DNA from: a virus
Length of the DNA: 64,000 nt
Virus record (IMG/VR): IMGVR_UViG_3300022927_000015
Span: 1 to 64,000 of that record
Direction: 5' to 3' (one strand)
The position numbers and the translations under genes are program-made. Each line of letters begins with the position of its first letter. The first letter of the stretch is position 1. The notes beneath the pieces are model-generated. The model ran no database searches. It saw only the letters and a program-made list of their open reading frames with translations, and was not told the DNA's origin. Of this stretch, positions 38,962 through 57,097 are shown piece after piece.

Positions 38962-40818
38962 TTACTTTCCTCTTATAGCTTTCAATGTTGGGCTATCCTG
39001 TAGCCTTCCAGTATTTGTACTTCTTGCATTACGTGAAGTTGCAATTGTAGTTCCACGAGTTCGCTTAAGATCATTAAACTTGCTCTGTTGTGTTTTATTG
39101 TATAGGTTATTTGGAATAGCGCCTTTAAAGAATATGTTAAGCGAACTTATAGTATTCTTTTGTGGAATAGGTTCATAGTAAGTTCCATTACGATCTTCCC
39201 ACCCACCTCTGATTATTGCTAAATCATCAGGGCCTATAACCACATCGCCAAATTCATCTAACCCTAATTGTGGATCTTCACCTTCTGCTAATGGTACCTT
39301 TTTATTTTCAATAAGTACCTTTTGGTCAGTTACAGGATCGGTACCATAAACTGGAACTACATAAAAGCCATCGGTAATTGCCTTTTCATTTTCTGCTGAT
39401 ATAAAGAATACATTAACAGAGTCAACACCATCCACATTTTCAATAATTGAAATTATATCAGATCTAGGAATACGATCCCTTCTATTGATTATCATAAAGT
39501 AAGTACTAAGATTTTCTCTAATCTCTGCATGAATCTCTTCTTTATCAAAACCGTCTACGTATCTTAATACAATATTAAGAGCATACTTTTTAATTATAGG
39601 ATCATTTATTCTAACCTCAGCTGTAACAATCTGCCTGCCGCTTTGGTTAAGAATATCATATACCATTTCTTTTTCATCTGCTGTCATAACAAATTCATCC
39701 TCAGATACACTAAAGTAATCTGTGTCACTTGTTATCTTTTTAGCAATATCAGGGATTAAGAAAAGGTAAACAATATTGTCATCATCTAAATACTGATCAT
39801 CTTTAGTATTATATGCATCTATAAAAGAAAAGTAATCATACTTGCTTAAATAGTAAATGTAATTATTAGGGTTAGCCAATACAAAAGAATTACTTTGATA
39901 TGGGGCTATTAGTCTGGTAAATGCAGGATCTTCACTATCTGATCCAAACATTGGATTTCTTACAATGTTTAATGATAGGACTTCATTAAGATCTACGTCG
40001 TTACCTTGTGGATCGGTACCAGGTTCTTTAAACTTAAGACCTAAATTTTTACCTCCAATGTTACCAGCAGTACCTCTTGTCTTTATATATGTTACCTTAA
40101 TTATTGAACCTAATGCAGGCGGTTGACCAAATTGATTATTACCAAAGAAAACAGTTAAGCCACCGTTTACACTAGTTTTAACCATAGCAGCTTCTTCACC
40201 GTTATTCATATCATAAAGAGAATCTACCTTTTTCCATTTTTTACCATCTACATAAACCTCAACCATGTATTGATCAGTAGGCTCCTTTGTGGTTAAGTTA
40301 TAACTCTGTAATGCCAATCCGGTACCAGTAAAGGTTTGGTCTTCTAGTTCTCCTTGTATTAGCTGAACATTAGTAAACTGCCGAGTGGTCTTTTCTAATC
40401 TAATATAATCACTGTCAAATTTTATAAAATAAGAAAGGCCATTCTGAGAAATTTCAAGAGGAGCCATATTTAATATCTGTACATAATCTCCTTCTACGAG
40501 GGTTGATGCCGAGGTGTTTAGTCTTAAACCAATTATTCCTTGTGCAGATATCCCTCTCGTAGGATCGTGACCAGTTAACCTAGAAAGACCATAGATTGAT
40601 TCAATGTTACGTGCTCTTGATATATTAAGCTCTGTTGCAACAGCTTCAATGTAAAACATTATAAGCTCGCCTAAGTTAGCAACTACAGTAAGTATCTGAC
40701 CAAACGGGGACGCAGGCGTAAACACTTCACCGGCCTGGTCGTATTGTCTTTGGAGATATTCAAATGCGTCATAGAATAACTCCGTTGCTTTTATTCTTGT
40801 TTTACTGAAGAATGACAT
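38962..40818 (-). CDS. gp6: Baseplate wedge protein gp6-like (gpJ family), 618 aa
   Basis: T4 gp6 (660 aa) forms the core ring of the baseplate, and its central domain is shared with P2 gpJ. This protein has the gp6-type N-terminal helix region (FEYLQRQYDQAGEVFTPASP, FGQILTVVANLGELIMFYIE), the AATELNISRARNIESIYGLS-type segment that follows, and a gpJ-like alpha/beta segment (DIISIIENVDGVDSVNVFF). It lies directly downstream of gp25, as expected for the contractile-tail gene order gp25-gp6/J. A 14-bp gap separates it from gp25. Confidence 0.85.
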   Translation of the reverse strand: MSFFSKTRIKATELFYDAFEYLQRQYDQAGEVFTPASPFGQILTVVANLGELIMFYIEAVATELNISRARNIESIYGLSRLTGHDPTRGISAQGIIGLRLNTSASTLVEGDYVQILNMAPLEISQNGLSYFIKFDSDYIRLEKTTRQFTNVQLIQGELEDQTFTGTGLALQSYNLTTKEPTDQYMVEVYVDGKKWKKVDSLYDMNNGEEAAMVKTSVNGGLTVFFGNNQFGQPPALGSIIKVTYIKTRGTAGNIGGKNLGLKFKEPGTDPQGNDVDLNEVLSLNIVRNPMFGSDSEDPAFTRLIAPYQSNSFVLANPNNYIYYLSKYDYFSFIDAYNTKDDQYLDDDNIVYLFLIPDIAKKITSDTDYFSVSEDEFVMTADEKEMVYDILNQSGRQIVTAEVRINDPIIKKYALNIVLRYVDGFDKEEIHAEIRENLSTYFMIINRRDRIPRSDIISIIENVDGVDSVNVFFISAENEKAITDGFYVVPVYGTDPVTDQKVLIENKKVPLAEGEDPQLGLDEFGDVVIGPDDLAIIRGGWEDRNGTYYEPIPQKNTISSLNIFFKGAIPNNLYNKTQQSKFNDLKRTRGTTIATSRNARSTNTGRLQDSPTLKAIRGK

Positions 40819-40832
40819 TCACTATCATATTT

Positions 40833-41198
40833 TTAAAATAGAGCACCAATTACTCTTTGTTCATTAATGTAAATATCTACTAAAGCACCATTTCTTTCAA
40901 CCGTGCTATAGAACTGTACTCTAGTATCTACTCCAAAACTTCCATCGCTACTGTTTAAGCAATAGGTTTGGATCTGTGTATTGATTCGTTGAGCAATAAC
41001 AGATTCATTTAGCACTAAAGAAAAGATAAGATCATCAAGATTACACCCTACATTAGGGGCTCCTAATACATCACCTCTCCTAGTAAATAATACATTCTCT
41101 ATTTTAAGGATAAGTTGCTGTAGCTTATCAGTCACTTCGATAATGTCATCATTATACTTAGGTGCATCTATGTCTCTACTATAAATTTCCTTAATCAT
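40833..41198 (-). CDS. gp25: Baseplate wedge protein gp25-like, 121 aa
   Basis: The GPW/gp25 family is recognised from the central ILKIENVLFTRRGDVLGAPN, the CNLDDLIF helix and the C-terminal strand pair (VQFYSTVERNGALVDIYIN). gp25 joins the wedge and sheath in all contractile injection systems. The length (121 aa) is normal. A promoter motif lies 16 bp upstream, so this gene starts the wedge transcript gp25-gp6-gp7. Confidence 0.88.
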   Translation of the reverse strand: MIKEIYSRDIDAPKYNDDIIEVTDKLQQLILKIENVLFTRRGDVLGAPNVGCNLDDLIFSLVLNESVIAQRINTQIQTYCLNSSDGSFGVDTRVQFYSTVERNGALVDIYINEQRVIGALF

Positions 41199-41214
41199 GG
41201 AGAATATTCTTTTA

Positions 41215-41223
41215 TTATATATT
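41215..41223 (-). promoter_or_regulatory. Late-type promoter motif AATATATAA
   Basis: The minus strand reads GAGAATATATAATAAAAG, 16 bp before the ATG of gp25-like. Confidence 0.55.
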
Positions 41224-41253
41224 CTCTACATTTTTTGAGGGTCTTAGATTATA

Positions 41254-42105
41254 TTAACCGGTGAAGAAGTAGTCAACACCTTCGTCGCCTTTAATCTCTT
41301 CAACAATCCTATCAATCTCTTCACGCCCCTCTCCAGCTATTAAATCGTAGTTTATAGTAATATTACCAGGTAGGTTAAATTGGAAAGTTCCTAGTATTCT
41401 AGATAGCTGTATTTTGGCCATACCGATACAGTAACGGATAAAGGCTTCATCTTGAAATAAATTACAATCAGGAATAGTATTGTAAACCTGGAAAACACAA
41501 GCTCCTCGATCCGGTAATTTTCCCATAAATCTAAGCTTCTTTGTTAACCTATTATAGTTATAGGAAATCTGAGCCTGTAAAACCTGTCTAGCATTATCAA
41601 TAAACTTAGAATTAATTACATAATACATAAGTTCTTCCGAACCGATACCAGCACCATAGACATCAGAGTATATAAATTTATCTAATGCAAAATCTGGGTC
41701 CATACCAGAAAAAGAATAATCCCCAAAGCCGCCATCTTCACCAGAAAAACCGTTCAATTCAAAAACATTATTAACTGCCCATATAGTATCTGGCATTTTA
41801 ACCACACCTCTTGAGTTATTTACATCTGCTTCTGATAAAGTATTACCTCCACTATTATGGCTGATTCCTTGTCTAAAATCCTTTTCGGCCCAAGCAGATG
41901 CAGGTAAAGCAATAAACATTTCTTCTACACTATCTTCATAGATTTTATAAAAGTAATCCTTTGCCCTATCTATAATTCTAGCCAATTCTTTTTTAGGAAC
42001 TGTAAAAGGTATTTGACAACCTACAGTTAAGTCATCATTAATCTGTTTGATCAAAGCATCTAAACATTCAGCCGCATCCGGGTTACACCAACTTTTGTTT
42101 GCCAT
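41254..42105 (-). CDS. Structural protein of unknown type (neck or baseplate), 283 aa
   Basis: The protein opens MANKSWCNPDAAECLDALIK, then has a helical region (VPKKELARIIDRAKDYFYKI) and a mixed C-terminal part (RYCIGMAKIQLSRILGTFQF then INYDLIAGEGREEIDRIVEE). It is predicted to be soluble, with no catalytic signature. It sits between the amidoligase-like gene (2-bp gap) and the promoter of gp25. The size and position would suit a neck, sheath terminator or baseplate protein, but I cannot assign it to a T4 gene. Confidence 0.45.
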   Translation of the reverse strand: MANKSWCNPDAAECLDALIKQINDDLTVGCQIPFTVPKKELARIIDRAKDYFYKIYEDSVEEMFIALPASAWAEKDFRQGISHNSGGNTLSEADVNNSRGVVKMPDTIWAVNNVFELNGFSGEDGGFGDYSFSGMDPDFALDKFIYSDVYGAGIGSEELMYYVINSKFIDNARQVLQAQISYNYNRLTKKLRFMGKLPDRGACVFQVYNTIPDCNLFQDEAFIRYCIGMAKIQLSRILGTFQFNLPGNITINYDLIAGEGREEIDRIVEEIKGDEGVDYFFTG

Positions 42106-42107
42106 CT

Positions 42108-43406
42108 TTATTTAATTTTTTCTATCTCTATTACTTCAGTATCTTTACTGAATCTTGCAAAATTTGTAGCTCTACCTTGTCTAAATATGCCACCTACCAT
42201 CTCACCGCTAAATACACCTCTTTTACCAAAGACGTAACTATCTTCACATACTACATTTTTGCTAACATAAGATTCCTCAATTTTACAATCCTCAACTACA
42301 GTAGCTCCAAATAAGTTAGATTCAAATACTGAGCTATTTTTAATGTCACATCCAAAGATATCACAGTTAATTATATTACCTTGAATAACAGAATCTACAA
42401 TATCAATTCCTTTAACTTCAAAGCATCTCATAAGCTTGGCATCCTTAATTTGTATTCTACCACTATCGGCGTCATAATTAATTAAACCTTCTTTCATATC
42501 GGCTTTAGTTAATAGCTCAAATATCTTTTCTCTTATGCGAGGATAAAACATTTCCACTATTTGGTCTTCTGTTTTAAGATCAATCATTAAATGAATATCT
42601 GGGAACTTTTCCTTGAATGCCTTATATGTCTTATAGGACTCTATTACATGTCTGTGTTTTTCTAATACAGAATCCAAAAGCTTCAAATCATCTTCAGTGT
42701 AATTAGGATTAACAAGAGTTTCATAGAGTGAGGTAATAAAATGCTCGGTCATTGAAAGTATAGTGGAATACTTCTTTTCATAATCCTTTCCACCTAAATA
42801 CCTAAACTCAATATACCCTTTAGGTATCTTAGTAAAGTTTATACCATAATACTTGTCATTAACAAATGCGTAATTTCTCCAAATGTTTTTACCTGGTGAT
42901 GACTGTGTCATTCCACTTAAAGGTACAATAAACTTTATTGACTTTGCATAAACAGAATCCTTTCTATTAGGAAAGGCTTCATAAACACGGTCTTCATCAA
43001 AATTAAGAACAAATTTACCAATATCTAATTTAGACATATTGGTAATAGGTCCTAATTTTTTACCGTCAAACGCAAGATTGACATGGATAGAACACCTTTC
43101 ATTAGTAGTACCGTTTTCTCTTATCCACTTTAATGTTTTGGCCATTATTAATTTTGCCTCAACAAAAGGTAAAGGCCCTGTGACCAATTCAATCATCCCT
43201 GTACCACCAGAGTTATCCGGCTCCATTTTAAAGACATCCTCGGTTGGAGCAAAATCACTATGGGCTTTTTCCTCTATTCTAATTTTCTTATTAAGAGTTC
43301 TAGAAAGACTCTCTTTGGCTGAATCTATACTTTCATTTGCAAAAAATTCAAATTCAAATCCAACCTTAGAGGAATGAATAGCATTAAGTTCTTCGTTAGA
43401 ATACAT
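42108..43406 (-). CDS. Amidoligase-like enzyme with C-terminal beta-helix repeats, 432 aa
   Basis: Residues 14-215 follow the pattern of the amidoligase (COOH-NH2 ligase, glutamine-synthetase-like fold) family: KVGFEFEFF (acidic pair Glu18, Glu20), EPDNSGGTGMIELVTGPL at 62-79 (D-x-S...E motif), RCSIHVNLAF with His108, and GYIEFRYLGGKDYE near 205. Such enzymes form amide or peptide bonds using ATP. From about residue 325 a pentapeptide/left-handed beta-helix-like repeat follows (GNIINCDIFGCDIKNSSVFE, then DCKIEESYVSKNVVCEDSYV). Its place among tail genes, with its own promoter, suggests a virion-linked or assembly-linked modification. The enzyme call is by motif pattern only. Confidence 0.55.
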   Translation of the reverse strand: MYSNEELNAIHSSKVGFEFEFFANESIDSAKESLSRTLNKKIRIEEKAHSDFAPTEDVFKMEPDNSGGTGMIELVTGPLPFVEAKLIMAKTLKWIRENGTTNERCSIHVNLAFDGKKLGPITNMSKLDIGKFVLNFDEDRVYEAFPNRKDSVYAKSIKFIVPLSGMTQSSPGKNIWRNYAFVNDKYYGINFTKIPKGYIEFRYLGGKDYEKKYSTILSMTEHFITSLYETLVNPNYTEDDLKLLDSVLEKHRHVIESYKTYKAFKEKFPDIHLMIDLKTEDQIVEMFYPRIREKIFELLTKADMKEGLINYDADSGRIQIKDAKLMRCFEVKGIDIVDSVIQGNIINCDIFGCDIKNSSVFESNLFGATVVEDCKIEESYVSKNVVCEDSYVFGKRGVFSGEMVGGIFRQGRATNFARFSKDTEVIEIEKIK

Positions 43407-43422
43407 ATTTATCCTGATTTGT

Positions 43423-43431
43423 TTATATATT
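43423..43431 (-). promoter_or_regulatory. Late-type promoter motif AATATATAA
   Basis: The minus strand reads TTGGAATATATAAACAAATC, 16 bp before the ATG of the amidoligase-like gene. Confidence 0.55.
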
Positions 43432-43448
43432 CCAAACCAGGATAAAGG

Positions 43449-44621
43449 TTATACTAAGTTCATTGTAATCTTACGATCTGCTGTATTGATACTTTGGATC
43501 TTAACTTGAAGCATGTCTCCTTTAGTAACTTCAGTATCTTTAAGTTTGGTTTTATGTATAAGTCCACTAATACCTTTTTCCAATTCAACAAATGCGCCGT
43601 ACTTAGTAACCTTGGTAACTTTACCTTCAGTAACCATCATTGGTTTATACTTTTCTTCAGCACCGTCCCATAGATCAACCTTAGGACCTTGTTGACTTAA
43701 AATGATTTTCTTTTCTGAAATAATTTCTTTAGTCCAAAAACTAATTTCATCACCCGGTTTAATTTCACGGTTTTCAAATTTGGCTAAAGTCTCTTCATCT
43801 ATTTCATTTTTAGGAATTAATCCAGTGAGGCATTCATTAAATTCAGCAAAGATACCAAATTTAGTGGTACCTGTGACAAAGCCGGTAATATGATCTTTGA
43901 TATTTTCTCTTAACGACTCAACAGTGGAAGGTATCATAGTTCTTAAATATTCTCTATGAGAAACTACGATAGTTTGTTTTTCGTTTGAATATGTAATAGG
44001 CATTACAATAAGCTCTTTACCAACCAATACATTAAAGTCATAAAGCTTATTTAATCCACCTAAGGATCCTGGCATAAAACATTGGATTCCACCAACTTCA
44101 ACCCAGTAACCACCATGTATTAGTTCTTTGACATAACCAGTAAATCCTACTGTCTTATCTCCTATTGCAGCATAGATTTCATTTCTCTTAACTTCATCTA
44201 ATGCATCTGCAATTGAAGCATAAAGAACCCCTCTTGATTGTCTCTTTACTTTTATATCAACAGACATCCCAACCTCTAATTGGTCTACGATTTCTTTAGG
44301 TTCTTTTGTTAACACACAAACAGCAGTATTCTTCTGTGAAATATCAATAAGTGCTTCAATTTTAGTTTCAACTTCCACATCATCTATGATTTGCTTAATC
44401 TTCTTAATGTGGACTATTTCACCTTGTGTTATGTAATTATTTGCTTCTTCTGATTTTTGAAGTCGGACAACTTCCTCATCGGCTAGTTGATACATTTTAA
44501 TAGCCTCAGCTGTATATGATTCGTTACATAATAGTTTTGTGCCTTTAGGTACCTGTACCTTTACTGTCTTTGTGTCAAATGGATCGTCGCTAAGCTGGAT
44601 CGTGATTTCTTGTTCAATCAT
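43449..44621 (-). CDS. Ribosomal protein S1-like RNA-binding protein, 390 aa
   Basis: Three S1 (OB-fold) domains are clear: about 150-220 (TVGFTGYVKELIHGGYWVEV), about 238-310 (HITGFVTGTTKFGIFAEFNE) and about 325-388 (VTEGKVTKVTKYGAFVELEK, ending RKITMNL). A fourth, degenerate domain may lie at 60-125. This is the arrangement of bacterial ribosomal protein S1, which recruits mRNA to the 30S subunit; bacterial S1 usually has four to six domains. A phage copy could steer host ribosomes toward phage mRNA with weak Shine-Dalgarno sites, or act in RNA stability. Single-gene unit with its own promoter. Confidence 0.8.
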   Translation of the reverse strand: MIEQEITIQLSDDPFDTKTVKVQVPKGTKLLCNESYTAEAIKMYQLADEEVVRLQKSEEANNYITQGEIVHIKKIKQIIDDVEVETKIEALIDISQKNTAVCVLTKEPKEIVDQLEVGMSVDIKVKRQSRGVLYASIADALDEVKRNEIYAAIGDKTVGFTGYVKELIHGGYWVEVGGIQCFMPGSLGGLNKLYDFNVLVGKELIVMPITYSNEKQTIVVSHREYLRTMIPSTVESLRENIKDHITGFVTGTTKFGIFAEFNECLTGLIPKNEIDEETLAKFENREIKPGDEISFWTKEIISEKKIILSQQGPKVDLWDGAEEKYKPMMVTEGKVTKVTKYGAFVELEKGISGLIHKTKLKDTEVTKGDMLQVKIQSINTADRKITMNLV

Positions 44622-45024: not shown

Positions 45025-45033
45025 TTATATATT
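45025..45033 (-). promoter_or_regulatory. Late-type promoter motif AATATATAA
   Basis: The minus strand reads CTAATATATAAACTGATAA, 18 bp before the ATG of the 100-aa gene and overlapping the end of the spike gene. Confidence 0.55.
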
Positions 45034-45949
45034 AGTCAGTAGTATTCTTCTTGCTATATGCAGGTTCAGGTGACGGTACCATGGGAGGACTAGTTGGAGC
45101 ACCTAAATTACCAACGTGAGTATGACTATCAACCCAAGCTCTAAAAGTATCACCTTTAATAACAGACTCGGCAGCGGCTTCACCTAACTTGATTCTAGGT
45201 GAATTAACATGTGTTTCACCAGACGCATTAATCTTAGCATCAATACAATTAACAACAGTATTCGTATCTGCATTAATTACAGTATCTGCTCCACTATTAA
45301 TTGTAAATTGAGCTGAATGTGTAAATGTAATATTACCGTCATTAAGCATTACGATAGAGTCACCGTTTGCATTAATAATCTCAACCGAGTTATCGGGTTT
45401 AATGTTAACTGTAGTTGGACCTTCTGTGGTTGTATAATCCATCATCAGTCCCTTTTCCTCAGTAAAGAAAACCTTTATATGTTCACCTTCTCTTTCATTT
45501 GTTACCTCAGGGTTCCCAGATTGTAGGTCAGCAGTTAAACCAAATGCTGTATCATATATTAATACATGGGAGTTAGGATAAGCGGCCTCTATCTCCGCCT
45601 TCGTCTCATCAGAAGGGTATAGGGACTCATGATACACGGGTGAATAGTAATTACCGTTATCAAAAGTTACCCTTAATATGGTGCCGAGTTTAGGTACCGA
45701 AAATGTACCACTTCCTGAATTACTTCCACCTGAAGATGCAACTGATGGCCTAGCCCACGGCAAAGAAGCAGTTGGCATAATGTAAGCGCTCTGTGGATCT
45801 TCTGGGTCTTGGCGTTGATCCATTTTACCGAAGACTCTAATCTTAATCCTCCCTTCAAATAGATCATCGTTAGTATCCTCAACGATACCAACCCAATTGC
45901 TCCCTTTAAGATTATCAGCTTTTAAATCCCTTGTGGTTAATTTACCCAT
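45032..45949 (-). CDS. gp5: Central spike protein, gp5/gpV-like without lysozyme domain, 305 aa
   Basis: An N-terminal OB-like domain (WVGIVEDTNDDLFEGRIKIR, then GTFSVPKLGTILRVTFDNGN) is followed by a repetitive beta-helix (SVEIINANGDSIVMLNDGNI, FTINSGADTVINADTNTVVN, ASGETHVNSPRIKLGEAAAE). The C-terminus contains WVDSHTHVGNLGAPTSPP, typical of gpV/gp5-type spikes. Unlike T4 gp5, there is no lysozyme domain between the OB fold and the helix, so cell-wall digestion must come from elsewhere. It lies 3 bp downstream of a baseplate/tube gene. Confidence 0.8.
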   Translation of the reverse strand: MGKLTTRDLKADNLKGSNWVGIVEDTNDDLFEGRIKIRVFGKMDQRQDPEDPQSAYIMPTASLPWARPSVASSGGSNSGSGTFSVPKLGTILRVTFDNGNYYSPVYHESLYPSDETKAEIEAAYPNSHVLIYDTAFGLTADLQSGNPEVTNEREGEHIKVFFTEEKGLMMDYTTTEGPTTVNIKPDNSVEIINANGDSIVMLNDGNITFTHSAQFTINSGADTVINADTNTVVNCIDAKINASGETHVNSPRIKLGEAAAESVIKGDTFRAWVDSHTHVGNLGAPTSPPMVPSPEPAYSKKNTTD

Positions 45950-48829: not shown

Positions 48830-49369
48830 TTAGTTTGCTTTAGTGTTTCTACTGTTTAGGTTAGTTCCTAACTTAATCTTACCGCCTTCATACTGTTTGG
48901 TTTCTTGACCAGGCTGTAACATATTAGGAGGCATAGGTTGTTTAACACCAGCTTTACTAGTCTTTGCTTTTTCAATAAGTCTCTGCATTCTTCCTTGATC
49001 CTTTTCGCTCTGTCTACCTGTATCAATATAAGCTTCTTGTGTTGAATTAGGTCTGGATGCAGGATTAGGTCTAGAGTAAACAAGATCTTGTCTAGATAAA
49101 TTAGGTATGACAAGAATATCACCTTCGGCAATAGTAAAAGGGTTAAAGATATTGTTAACTACACAAATAGCATCTATGAATTCACCGCTACCAAAATAGA
49201 GTTCCGATATCTTATCAATTCTACCTACTTGGTCAATCTGTACATAATGCAATGCCTTAACACCTAAGTCTGCGTTATATGTAAATGACGGTGCAGTTAG
49301 GTCATAATAAAACTCACCAGTTCTTTCCTCTGTCAATTTATTCTTTAATGCTAACGATTTAATATTCAT
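48830..49369 (-). CDS. gp53: Baseplate wedge protein with LysM domain, gp53-like, 179 aa
   Basis: Residues about 42-90 form a LysM-type domain (ALHYVQIDQVGRIDKISELY, then FGSGEFIDAICVVNN and FTIAEGDILVIPN). In T4 gp53 a LysM-like fold locks adjacent wedges together; equivalent small LysM proteins are found in all contractile tails. The C-terminal half is polar and probably flexible. It lies 1 bp from both the hub gene and the upstream tail gene. Confidence 0.75.
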   Translation of the reverse strand: MNIKSLALKNKLTEERTGEFYYDLTAPSFTYNADLGVKALHYVQIDQVGRIDKISELYFGSGEFIDAICVVNNIFNPFTIAEGDILVIPNLSRQDLVYSRPNPASRPNSTQEAYIDTGRQSEKDQGRMQRLIEKAKTSKAGVKQPMPPNMLQPGQETKQYEGGKIKLGTNLNSRNTKAN

Positions 49370-49370
49370 A

Positions 49371-51167
49371 TTACGAGTCTATCATCATACTAACCAGATT
49401 AGAAGTATATGCAGCATCATCATCGGTGAAAATGTTTGCATTTGATTGCTTCTTAATGTTAGATATTTTATCATTTTTTATATCAGCAGCTTGATTCCCT
49501 TGTGTAGGGGATAAGCTAACGTTACCAGCCTTAACCGATCCGTATGTTGCTACATCTTGTCCTGCTAGGTTAAGAATATCTTCTTCGCCTGCAGCAGATG
49601 CATATATTCTACCACGCCCAGCATTAAACATATTTTCTATATCACCTTTATCTCTAGGCTTACCGTGTTTAAGGGTTACTTCAAATTTAACCTCCATCGG
49701 AAAATCATCATATCCTAAACCATGTCCTAGAGTCATAGTAGCATTATCACAGAACATATTACCCATCATAACAATTGGATTAAGAGGATTTCCCACAGTT
49801 ACATGCCAATCGCCAGTAGGCTCTCCGCTTACAAAGGTTTTAGTAGCTTGTGTACCTGAAACAGCTCCTACATTTTCACTTAAGAATCCACCTAACATGT
49901 TACCTAATAATGTTTTACCAACTTTAAGTAAACCATCTAATCCATTTTCTAAATTAAATTCACCGGTACCTCCACCGAATACATTTTTAAAACCAGTCTC
50001 CACATCAGTAACAACACTTCCAATATAACCGCTAAAGTCACCTTGCTTAAGTTTATTAATATCACCAAACTGACTGGCAACGGCACCTGCACTACCATAG
50101 TACCTTTGGCCACCACCAAAGAATTGACCGTTATTATAAGTCATGGTTAACATATTACTTATAATATCAATCATTGCAATTTTAGGATTAACATAGTTAA
50201 GAGATTTGAGCTCATATTCAAAATTAAGCTTCATATCTTGACTAAAGTTTAAACCTCTATCCCTAATATTAGTTTTATTAACAACATTAACAGGACCTAT
50301 TACAAAGTTAGCATAAGTAGTTCCTAGCTGATCACCGGTACTATTTAACTGACTTGCAAATTTTTGTCTTGAACTAATTCCTTTGAACGCATCAGCGGTT
50401 GCTCTACCAATACCTCCCATCTTACTATAAAAAGGCTGCTGTGTATATCCACCATCACCACTGTCTACGGATTCCATCTCATTGGTGATTTCTTTATAGG
50501 TTAAACCATAAGACATGGTTAAGAGGTCTTCTAATTTATTACCAGCCTTTTCTCCCATATAAGTAACTGCAGTTACACCTGCTGTTTGCGTTGCATCAAC
50601 TGCCTCAGAGGTAGTAGCGGTATTGCCATCTTTTGAACCTGGTGTTTTACTTAGGTCAAAAATATTGTCTTCTACAGGAACTGGGAATCTTCTTAGCGTA
50701 ACTAAATGATTTACAGGAATCTGCTTATAGTATTTATTGTATAAAAAGTCCTGTGGCTTATATGATATTCTTGGATAGTTTTCATTATAGAATTCCATCA
50801 TCTTTGCAATGGATATATTCTTTGCATCAGTTCCACCCATTAATGAATTATTGGGGCTATCAAAAAAGTCTTTACTAACATCACCGGTTAAACCACCATA
50901 CATACCTCTGAAATTAAATAGAGCAAACCTATTAAATATAGATCTAGGTATTTCAATGTTTTGCATACCCTCAGAAACACCAAACTGGTCAGGGAGTGCC
51001 CTACCTGAAAAAAACGTCTTAGCAGTTTCTAGCTCTATTTCATGAGCCATGCCAACAGACTCCCCACCATAAACTCCTAATCTAACCGCACTGGGCGAAT
51101 TAGGGTTAGGTGGAGTATTTGCATTTACACTACTATTACTTAAAGTTTCGGTCTTGTATGATGACAT
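49371..51167 (-). CDS. Tail/baseplate tube-associated structural protein, 598 aa
   Basis: Two stretches look like tail-tube-fold elements: MKLNFEYELKSLNYVNPKIA (about 325) and, near residue 465-510, WHVTVGNPLNPIVMMGNMFC followed by DDFPMEVKFEVTLKHGKPRD. A hydrophobic Gly-rich section (LLKVGKTLLGNMLGGFLSEN) lies between them. This could be a gp48-like protein at the tube-baseplate junction. A promoter motif lies 18 bp upstream, making it the first gene of the hub transcript (this gene, gp53-like, hub, initiator, spike). Confidence 0.5.
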   Translation of the reverse strand: MSSYKTETLSNSSVNANTPPNPNSPSAVRLGVYGGESVGMAHEIELETAKTFFSGRALPDQFGVSEGMQNIEIPRSIFNRFALFNFRGMYGGLTGDVSKDFFDSPNNSLMGGTDAKNISIAKMMEFYNENYPRISYKPQDFLYNKYYKQIPVNHLVTLRRFPVPVEDNIFDLSKTPGSKDGNTATTSEAVDATQTAGVTAVTYMGEKAGNKLEDLLTMSYGLTYKEITNEMESVDSGDGGYTQQPFYSKMGGIGRATADAFKGISSRQKFASQLNSTGDQLGTTYANFVIGPVNVVNKTNIRDRGLNFSQDMKLNFEYELKSLNYVNPKIAMIDIISNMLTMTYNNGQFFGGGQRYYGSAGAVASQFGDINKLKQGDFSGYIGSVVTDVETGFKNVFGGGTGEFNLENGLDGLLKVGKTLLGNMLGGFLSENVGAVSGTQATKTFVSGEPTGDWHVTVGNPLNPIVMMGNMFCDNATMTLGHGLGYDDFPMEVKFEVTLKHGKPRDKGDIENMFNAGRGRIYASAAGEEDILNLAGQDVATYGSVKAGNVSLSPTQGNQAADIKNDKISNIKKQSNANIFTDDDAAYTSNLVSMMIDS

Positions 51168-53227: not shown

Positions 53228-56200
53228 TTAAAGAGGGTTGTCTTCAGCCCATAGCTTCCAAACTAAACTCCAAGGCTCAGTACTAGCAATATCTCCAGTA
53301 CCAGCCCACCCAATAACAAGCCTATCATTAACAGCGCTAGTGATTGTGCCTGGTGTAAATGTTAAAGTATCACACTTATACCAAAGGGCATCATTTTGGT
53401 TTGTCCAGTTTCCGGTATTATCTGTCGATCCTATTTGGCTTAATTGGAAATCATTACCACTACTAAACTGACCACATGTCCACTTAAATAAACCTACATA
53501 AAGATTAGGTGGATTTGTAGTACCAACATGAGTACCTGTTATTCTTAACTTATAAACAGTACCATCTGCACCAATATCGTTAATTATTGGTATCATATGA
53601 GTTCCGTACGATCTACTTAATACTGGCGGAACCCCTGATAGAGAAGGAATTGCATTAGTCCAATCGTATGCACTCCAACCTTCCGCAGCACCACCACCTG
53701 ATTGGAAACTTATACCACCTGTATACGGAGTTACTCCACTTTTAAAATAAATAGCCCCTTCTGCGATTGGGTTTTCATCTCCATAGGTTGAACCGCCAGA
53801 TCCTGCAGGACCAGTGGCTCCAATAGGTCCTTGTGGCCCTTGCGGTCCGGTTACACCTGTACCAATTGGCCCTTGTGGCCCTTGAACACCTTGTATACCT
53901 TGTGGTCCTTGTGGACCTTGAACACCAGTGGCTCCAGTAGGTCCAGTTGCACCGCTCTTAGCTACACAGTAAATAGTTTCAGTGGAAGTAGTAAATGTTT
54001 GGTTAGGTCCGGCTGCATGAGAGACTGTTAAAATAATTGCACCTGGCGAACCTCCAATTGGAGTAATCGCAGTAACATCATATGTATCAGGATTACTTGT
54101 TCCTTGGGTAAGAGATACAATATCTCCAGGTAAAGGAAGTTCATTAGTTGATCCTGCTGAATTACTTATAAAGATTTGAGTTACGCCTGATGCCGTAGAA
54201 CTATTGACCGCAAATGTACCAGCAACAGATCCACCAACCCTAAAGACTGATGATGGAATTACTTCACAACCTGCACTAACTATTTGAGCACCAGCTGCTC
54301 CAGTTGGTCCTTGTGGTCCTTGCGGTCCAGTTTCACCTTGTGGTCCCTGTGGTCCAGTTTCACCCTGTGGTCCTTGTGGTCCAGTTTCACCCTGTGGTCC
54401 TTGTGGTCCAGTTTCACCTTGTGGTCCTTGTGGTCCTTGTTCTCCCTGCGGTCCTTGAATTCCTCTTGGACCTTGCGGCCCAGCTTCACCTTGTGGTCCT
54501 TGTGGCCCTTGAATACCAGTAGCTCCTATTGAACCTTGTGGTCCTTGTGGCCCTTGAACACCAGTAGCTCCAGTTTCACCACCCGGTCCTTGAACACCAG
54601 TTGCTCCTATTGAACCTTGTGGTCCTTGAGGTCCTTGAGGTCCTTGAATACCGGTGGCACCAGTTTCACCTATACCGGTAGCACCTATTGATCCTTGAGG
54701 TCCTTGAACACCTGTTGCCCCTATAGGTCCTTGAACACCAGTAGCACCTGCACCAGTAGCTCCAACTGGTCCTTGAACACCAGTAGCACCAGTTAATCCA
54801 TTACCTACAACTTTAGTTAGGTTAAAATTAATATTATGACTCGTTAATGCAGGAGTTCCACTATCAACTTTAAATCTTAAATCAATAACATCACCTGCAG
54901 TTAAGTCCACTAAATCAGTAGTTGAAAATGAACCTATACTATTATTAGACATTGAACGACTAGAAACAGTTGATGAAATTGGATTACCGTTTTTATGTAC
55001 GGCAACCGTTAGCTTGGCATTTGCATTAAGAGAAACTGTATAAGCAGCAGATATTTGATATACTCCACCTTCTCCTGCTGAAATAACCAGTGTATCACCT
55101 TGCGGTGGTCCACTAGATGCTACATAAGACATTTGATTTAGTTCACCCTGTATTGCTTCATCCCAGCCTACATAAGAAGTACTTAAGTTAAGAGTATTAG
55201 CGCCCTCAGGATCTACTTGGTACATTTCACCATAAGCAATTGATCCGCTTATTACACCAGCAGGCCCAGTAGCACCAGTAGGTCCTTGAGGACCTTGAAT
55301 ACCAGTAGCCCCATCTGCACCAGTAGCACCAATTGAACCAATCCCGGTTGCCCCTATAGGACCCTGTTCACCCTGTGGTCCTTGAACACCTTGAATACCT
55401 TGTGGTCCTTGTGGTCCTTGCGGTCCAGTTGCTCCAATTTCACCAACACCAGTAGCACCGGTTAGACCTTGTGGTCCTTGGATACCAGTGGCACCAATTC
55501 CTCCAGCACCAGTGGCACCAATTGGTCCTTGCGGTCCTTGCGGTCCAGTTGCTCCAATTCCACCAGCACCAGTGGCCCCAGTTAAACCCGTAGCACCAGT
55601 AGCTCCAGTTTCTCCCTTATCACCAGTTACAACAAATGAAACAATTACTTCTTCATCCATAGTAAACGGTGAAGATGCTGTAGATGCAATTGGAACTACG
55701 TCTATTTCCCACCATCCGGTATTATCAGTAAGATCACTTATTTGAAATAATATAAATTCTGTTGCATCAGCAGAAGAGCTAATTCTAACATGCCCTTTTG
55801 GTATTGATGTTGATGCATCTATTGTTTGTAAGAATGTTGAAATATCTCCACCACCAGTATATGCCGTATCGTTGATAGACATTATAGTAGAGGTATTTTG
55901 TGTTGCATTATTTAATGACACATACCCAAACCCAGGATCTGCTACAGATGTAACAGTATTAAAGTCATATGTAAATGAAGCTCCGCCAAAAGTACCATCT
56001 GCACCAGTAGCACCAGTAAGACCAGTAGCACCTGGAGGCCCATCAACACCTGGAGGCCCTTGCGGACCATTACCACCTATTTCTCCCTGTGGTCCCTGTG
56101 GTCCCTGTGGTCCATCAACACCAGTAGCTCCAGTTTCACCTATGCCAGTAGCACCAATAGGTCCTTGGGGTCCTTGAACACCAGTGGCTCCAGTTGGACC

Positions 56201-57097
56201 TTGGACACCAGTAGCCCCAAACCCGGTAGCTCCAACTGGCCCAGTAGCACCAGCTGGTCCTTGTGGCCCAGTGGCACCAGTATCTCCAGTTAACCCAGCT
56301 GCAGCAGGTGATATGTTTATCCAATTACTTCCATTCCATTGTAAGATATCGGAATTTGATGGTGAAGGTGCATTAACATTAGAAAGCATACTTATAGTAG
56401 GAGATCCACTGTTAAGGTTAGCTAAATCTACTTCACTTTCATCAAAATTATAAACTACATTATTATTAACCCCATCTAAATTAGCGGTTAGCGGAGTTCC
56501 TGTTGTATTAGTAGCAGTTAATCCTCTAAAAGTTAGTGTAGTGCCGGACATACCAGCAAAAAGATTATTACCACCAACCCCAATATTAGTACCTTGGTTA
56601 ACTTCACCGCTTGCACCTGTGTTTATAAGCTTTATAGAGTTTGTCGTGGTATCATATTGTAAACTCATACCAGGACCTGCAATTAATCTAAATGTGTCAT
56701 TAGGTGTTGTTGAAAAAAGAGTCCCATCATCGGTTGTTTGAAAAGACCCTGTTGCTCCAGTATAGTTAAGTACAACTTTACCAAACCCTGGGCTAGCTCC
56801 TACTGTAATATCTCCGGATCCAATACCTCCAATGATATCCCATTCATTTTGATCAAATACACCTCTCGTGGTTCTCTTATTAGCTCTCCACCAAACTAAA
56901 GCTTCTGATGATACACTTGTACCGCCAGTAGGTTCAATGACCTCTACTGGGTGATATACAATATGACCTTCTTCATAAGTTCTATCGTCAACCCACGGGT
57001 TTGCTACTGCTTTAAAATTATCATCCACTTCTCCGTTAAAAAGTTCTCTTTTAACTTCTGTTCTATAGATGATATATTCTTTTAAATTGAATGCCAT
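53228..57097 (-). CDS. Giant collagen-like tail fibre, 1289 aa
   Basis: The N-terminal 260 residues form a base ([20 protein letters not shown], then [16 protein letters not shown]) and a beta region. Four collagen-like Gly-X-Y stretches follow, encoded at about 55995-56304, 55255-55625, 54290-54800 and 53800-53965. They are separated by three compact beta domains of about 110-170 residues (such as [20 protein letters not shown], which resembles a TNF/C1q-like jelly roll). A C-terminal domain of about 190 residues ([20 protein letters not shown] and so on) probably forms the tip. The stalk plus globule layout implies a long trimeric fibre. It is unusually long for a collagen-like phage protein. 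Confidence 0.8.
54290..54800 (-). repeat. Collagen-like coding repeats, including 27-bp GPQGPQGET units
   Basis: From about 54305 to 54440 the 27-bp unit encoding GPQGPQGET recurs nearly unchanged. Further to 54800 the triplets become more varied ([15 protein letters not shown]). The 27-bp unit is the same as in the fibre gene at 1-380. Confidence 0.85.

Follow-up and report, generated by a model that had tools for sequence, protein, structure and literature searches.

A predicted glutamine synthetase-fold amidoligase with a C-terminal beta-solenoid in the tail region of very large phages

The gene located on the minus strand at positions 42108-43406 of the window (the 64,000-nucleotide stretch of viral DNA analysed here) belongs to a subfamily of amidoligases of the glutamine synthetase (GS) fold which carries a C-terminal solenoid and has a constant location among the tail genes in one group of very large phages. 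The assignment comes from Pfam, AlphaFold, Foldseek and VIA-align. Our preferred reading of its function, to which we give a probability of about 0.4, is that of an active, late amidoligase which would modify or cross-link a tail or baseplate protein, the solenoid serving as a docking module. Phage amidoligases are common and of unknown function, and the obligate place of the present one in a baseplate operon, together with its solenoid, narrows the question to the formation of an amide bond on a tail protein.

The source IMG/VR virus record is 72,312 bases long, displays features of the T4 superfamily (gp32 and UvsW, by Pfam), encodes gp25-, gp6- and hub-like baseplate proteins (Pfam/PHROGs) and contains no second copy of the amidoligase. 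The open reading frame keeps the limits originally assigned to it, starts with ATG and encodes 432 amino acids. Its product matched no PHROG of known function and no NCBIfam family, and a Megablast search of phages with the 40-64 kb part of the window returned zero matches. To our knowledge, a protein joining an amidoligase to a beta-helix is not among the components of T4.

Fold and conserved residues of the two domains

The family set was obtained by reducing 199 matches to 191 full-length proteins (380-520 amino acids), of which 102 are distinct and 57 remain at 90% identity; removal from these 57 of five rows derived from the "phages" collection and of L007, L068, L172 and L175, and addition of the window protein and L164, yielded the 50-member alignment A2 that was the input for AlphaFold. 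The resulting model of the whole protein has a mean pLDDT of 89.9 and a pTM of 0.82. The catalytic GS-like domain, delimited by the model, the fold matches and family conservation, extends over approximately residues 1-300 (42507..43406, minus strand); Foldseek places only glutamine synthetases at the top of its solved matches (E 4e-5), and VIA-align matches it to glutamine synthetase 4bax with Z 12.3 over 186 residues at 3.6 A (model range 1-235). The likeness to glutamine synthetase concerns the catalytic half, whereas sequence identity is only about 9-15%; since the matched ranges of the GS chains begin near residue 101-141, the N-terminal part of GS is left unmatched. In a sequence search of the solved structures most matches were solenoids (E about 0.005) and none was a glutamine synthetase.

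The Pfam model Amidoligase_2 scores the isolated protein just below its curated cut-off (21.3 bits vs 22, E=2.8e-4) and the open frame above it (23.5 bits) when the latter is scored together with neighbouring matches; 17 of the 50 family members are matched at E<=0.1, and none of eight records from huge phages or their relatives exceeds the cut-off, which indicates that the family represents a divergent branch. This divergence, with the score of the isolated protein, might be taken to mean that a former enzyme has been retained merely as a scaffold; such a pseudo-enzyme is highly improbable, given that the full set of acidic, His and Arg residues is present in all 103 proteins, even where identity falls to about 31-35%.

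The motifs of the catalytic domain are G16-x-E18-x-E20, K60-x-E62-P-D64-x-SGG, E73-L-x-T-G77, H108-x-N110, K185-Y-x-G-x-N190 and E200-F-R202. Within the 103 distinct family proteins E18, E20, K60, D64, S66, E73, K90, T101, H108, K131, K185, N190, E200, R202, N310, R409 and G411 are invariant, E62, N110, R148, K155, K158 and G406 each vary in a single protein and H49 in two. These motifs comprise what we take to be the metal- and ATP-binding residues expected of an amidoligase, namely GxExE, the acidic pair, the His motif and ExR, all of which are present; by motif correspondence, as opposed to superposed coordinates, E18/H108/E200 and E20/(E62 or D64)/E73 presumably represent the two metal sites of GS. 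The sequence-only reading had proposed an amidoligase-like enzyme and had made this proposal dependent on a GS-like or amidoligase fold and on conserved acidic and His residues; GS is in fact the best solved fold of the predicted structure by both Foldseek and VIA-align, a family profile leads to a phage amidoligase (see below), and E18, E20, D64, E73, H108, E200 and R202 are found in 103/103 proteins. The GS fold and its pairing with a beta-solenoid are thus predicted with near certainty, and the fold and the residues taken together make it very probable that the protein is an active ATP-dependent ligase.

The right-handed beta-solenoid corresponds to residues 302-432 (42111..42503, minus strand), as defined by a separate model, periodicity, matches to Pentapeptide_4 and conservation. 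When these C-terminal 131 residues are modelled alone, a beta-solenoid is predicted with a pLDDT of 95.4, whose fold matches (Z 8-10) place pentapeptide-repeat proteins on a par with other right-handed beta-helices. The hydrophobic period of 5 in residues 326-382 of the window protein was equalled by only 8 of 5000 shuffles, there being no signal for periods 3, 4, 6 and 7; the same five-residue periodicity reaches the 5% level in 39/50 family members, and Pentapeptide_4 matches 23/50 at E<=0.1. A cap motif is conserved around GGIFRxG (G406, R409, G411). The fused beta-helix with pentapeptide-like repeats that had been suggested from the sequence is therefore upheld, the pentapeptide-like core being confined to approximately residues 326-382. 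The domain resembles the pentapeptide-repeat proteins AlbG, MfpA, QnrB1 and NP275/276 in being a period-5 solenoid (fold Z 8-10) and differs from them in being short and fused to an enzyme; moreover, other beta-solenoids score equally.

Relatives, distribution and selection

The carriers of the gene are large marine and freshwater phages. In the phage collection six of 50,697 records match, all from uncultured phages of 462-735 kb, which share 32-43% identity with the protein across 93-100% of its length; they include two records of 735 kb with identical match coordinates. IMG/VR contains relatives in at least 566 stretches, although many of the loci are near-duplicates and the searches that gave them overlap in contigs, so that counts of loci do not represent independent events. 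The species-genome collection yielded no cellular relatives with the single protein as query, and with the alignment as query a single match, a phage contig within a Bacteroidetes MAG. Bacteroidetes hosts have been predicted for the clade comprising the four largest huge-phage genomes (PMC7162821). Both domains are kept in the huge-phage relatives of 462-735 kb and in the phage contig of the MAG, and the solenoid fusion is present in all clades of the family. Among 12 close members, chosen by hand, the median pairwise dN/dS is 0.12 for residues 1-300 (44 of 66 pairs having finite dS) and 0.21 for residues 305-432 (65/66 pairs). The sequence comparisons thus indicate that the gene is under purifying selection, with retention of both domains. 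Weak second matches of the family profile occur in two of the huge-phage records, of 735 and 642 kb (LR756501.1 380837-381298 and LR756502.1 208705-208980; E 4e-6 and 1e-5).

Two viral proteins are of particular relevance for comparison. The family profile finds the sole PF12224 protein of Agrobacterium phage Atu_ph07 (AUZ94978) at E 3.8e-22, this target being itself above the Pfam cut-off. The GS-like cores of the two can be aligned, with the PD, ELV, HxN and EFR motifs in register (hhalign 98.4%), but the match to the Atu_ph07 protein covers the core alone (30-258 of 442), whereas the present family lies near the Pfam cut-off and possesses the C-terminal solenoid. In Atu_ph07 the amidoligase gene faces a convergent nucleotidyltransferase gene and adjoins the portal gene and that of an 845-aa, tail-lysin-like protein. 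AUZ94978 is most likely identical to A0A2L0UZM1 (same length and only PF12224 match in the record), which in BFVD is among the many viral matches named amidoligase. The same two-domain architecture is seen end to end in a second BFVD entry, A0A6J5PQ40 from an uncultured Caudovirales phage, there called "Uncharacterized protein", which matches our model with a TM of 0.89 over 445 columns at 27% identity.

Phage-encoded Amidoligase_2 enzymes are also found in the amidoligase-GATase sets of LUZ24-like phages and of the OM43 phage, and for such systems, e.g. those of phiEco32 and Marvin, a modification of the cell wall has been proposed (PMC10580990; PMC3890496). Belonging to the same superfamily, the present enzyme might likewise act on host cell-wall peptides or on a small metabolite, thereby blocking superinfection or remodelling the envelope, in which case the position in a tail operon would fix only the late timing of its expression. 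A GGACT-type cyclotransferase gene (PF06094) does exist in three of seven huge-phage or MAG records (W02, W03 and W04), not adjacent to the amidoligase; it is absent from W01, W05, G003 and the MAG. On the other hand, the usual partner GATase_6 (PF13522) is missing from 6/6 phage records, all 14 control genomes being positive, and the two copies of the Bacteroidetes MAG lie on contigs other than that of the amidoligase. Thus, unlike the LUZ24-like and OM43-phage enzymes, which belong to genomes with a GATase, the present one resides in a tail operon without GATase_6. Furthermore, the LUZ24-like operon (amidoligase, COOH-NH2 ligase, GATase, ATP-grasp, GGCT) was not found around the gene; phage UFV-P2, which also has ATP-grasp and GGCT genes, in its early module, encodes an amidoligase that has no direct HMM or hhalign link to the family profile. 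The fusion to a solenoid likewise points to a macromolecular partner, and an action on the cell wall or on a metabolite appears rather unlikely. Within the literature covered, most subscription journals lying outside it, nothing evidently describes a phage amidoligase with a pentapeptide repeat or one associated with a baseplate, a virion or a huge phage.

The tail-region setting and the possible substrate

In the close clade the order of the genes is S1-like, amidoligase, Ad2-like, gp25, gp6. In the window, where all of them lie on the minus strand, these correspond to a 390-aa ribosomal-protein-S1-like protein (43449..44621; NCBIfam S1 models, E down to 5e-39), separated from the amidoligase by a 42-nt spacer; to the downstream neighbour (41254..42105), assigned by PHROGs to "head-tail adaptor Ad2" and lying after a gap of 2 nt; and to the gp25-like (40833..41198) and gp6/J-like (38962..40818) baseplate wedge proteins, both recognized by Pfam and PHROGs. 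A gp5/V-like baseplate hub (OB) protein (45032..45949; Pfam, PHROGs) and a further baseplate wedge subunit (48830..49369; PHROG 7145) are encoded on the other side. Farther along, 53228-57097 encodes a protein of 1289 aa that contains triple-helix repeats of the collagen type (Pfam Collagen 1.4e-44) and is probably a tail fibre, and a highly repetitive plus-strand frame (LWSLW...), a sign of tandem repeats, occupies positions 1-498.

To avoid circularity, the Ad2-like downstream protein was used as bait, which gave 80 loci: 73 extend upstream by 1400 bases or more, and in every one of these the amidoligase lies no more than 250 bp away; all 71 having more room also carry the S1-like gene upstream. 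The amidoligase is therefore an obligate member of the baseplate operon in the close clade, and the location within a tail gene cluster, already perceived from the sequence, holds for the hub, gp25-like, gp6-like and further wedge neighbours as well as for the 73/73 loci. Gene content and order are the same in the 462 kb phage, apart from insertions.

The association is looser in the distant clade, for which 34 loci were placed (the fragment L200 being left out). Homologues of the window genes 48830-49369 or 49371-51167 lie no more than three genes from the amidoligase in 25 of these, or in 28 with the inclusion of c3, a cluster of unknown function, and the remaining six (L004, L005, L170, L174, L195 and L196) have neither c1-c3 nor another tail cluster within three genes. 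In most cases the distant-clade amidoligase is oriented away from the tail genes c1-c3 and runs in the same direction as a DHH phosphoesterase gene. The latter is found at most three genes away, in either orientation, in 29/34 loci (e.g., L178 11840-13690); DHH was rejected as a fixed partner, being located elsewhere in W01 and W04, and four of eight records lack it by Pfam. In the contig of the MAG the amidoligase is flanked by genes for two proteins that look tail/fibre-like by eye, one of 689 aa, 7 bases ahead of its start, and one of 842 aa, 23 bases beyond its end, and the same contig also carries a gp6 gene; in the genomes of 634-735 kb gp6 is far from the amidoligase. The orientation away from c1-c3, the six loci without tail genes and the remoteness of gp6 count against a tail function.

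The constant upstream neighbour in the close clade offers a different possibility, i.e. that the enzyme modifies the translation apparatus, either the S1-like protein itself or host ribosomal proteins, in favor of phage translation. RimK-type ligation of amino acids to a ribosomal protein would be comparable in its effect. An S1-like homologue is present in 8/8 huge-phage or related records, and in huge phages bearing rpS1-like genes identifiable Shine-Dalgarno sites are rare (PMC7162821). However, only in the close clade and the 462 kb phage are the two genes near each other; they are about 30 to 440 kb apart in the phages of 634-735 kb, in G003 and in the contig of the MAG, while tail genes stay near in most of the distant loci; the linkage is thus local to one clade, which weakens this explanation, and we consider it improbable. 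The same neighbour is instructive in another respect: an S1-like protein is hardly a tail part, so that non-structural genes can sit in the baseplate operon, and operon position does not prove tail function.

The constant position between the hub and the wedge genes and the frequent occurrence of beta-solenoids among tail proteins could also be accounted for if the protein were itself a component of the virion, a tail-borne enzyme acting at adsorption or after injection. A GS-like enzyme, however, requires ATP, and there is none outside the cell; a virion-borne enzyme seems distinctly improbable.

The rigid solenoid present in all clades, the obligate position among baseplate genes in the close clade with proximity to tail genes in most distant loci, and the absence of GATase_6 favor a large, late, tail-linked substrate. 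That this substrate is a tail or virion protein is suggested by position and architecture, and we hold it tentatively, at somewhat below even odds. In the GS family ATP activates a carboxylate and the acyl group then passes to an amine. By analogy with the family, a late amidoligase modifying a tail or baseplate protein, as preferred here, would be co-produced late with the baseplate proteins, bind Mg-ATP, convert a carboxylate into an acyl-phosphate and join the latter to an amine through an amide or isopeptide bond. As position and architecture would have it, either the carboxylate or the amine might belong to a tail or baseplate protein, and the rigid solenoid could dock the enzyme on its substrate or drive oligomerisation, so that a tail protein would become tagged, capped or cross-linked. 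A narrower version, in which the enzyme would be a protein ligase dedicated to the tail, seated by its solenoid on a baseplate intermediate and either forming amide or isopeptide bonds between tail proteins or adding amino acids to them, is in our opinion unlikely; if it held, the contractile tail would undergo covalent maturation by an enzyme that is conserved among the largest phages known.

The element upstream of the gene

The sequence-only reading had placed a late-type promoter before the gene, and only part of this claim stands. The T4 late promoter TATAAATA is not found at the gene, and in the window it occurs 9 times vs 13.8 expected; what precedes the gene is a conserved, late-promoter-like element, ATATATAA, at 43423-43430 (minus strand), recognized in the alignment of the spacers. 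This alignment (A4) contains 18 of 24 representative spacers, the window's own replacing that of L007 and six visibly different ones (L001, L151, L154, L165, L166 and L167) being omitted, and ATATATAA is invariant throughout the 18. Of 44 distinct upstream stretches, 43 contain TATA[AT]A. Of the minus-strand matches to ATATATA[AC] in the window, 10/18 lie 14-29 nt upstream of the start of a minus-strand gene, such stretches making up 5.0% of the window, and the plus strand has four matches; as ATATATAA was chosen after viewing the spacers, this enrichment is a descriptive figure. A scan for sigma-70 promoters gave 44 matches, i.e. fewer than the 63.6 found in shuffles. As far as can be judged from the sequence, ATATATAA may represent a late promoter specific to this lineage.

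The element is enclosed in an inverted repeat (43408..43446, minus strand) with 14-bp arms at 43433-43446 and 43408-43421, within the 42-nt spacer. In 12 of the 18 aligned spacers the repeat beats shuffles at p<=0.02, the other six lacking it; the arms differ in sequence between phages, yet pair in these 12. Among the 18 copies of the ATATATAA element on the minus strand of the window, two display a hairpin at p<=0.05. The ATATATAA copy preceding the gp25-like gene, at about 41196-41225, likewise lies inside an inverted repeat.
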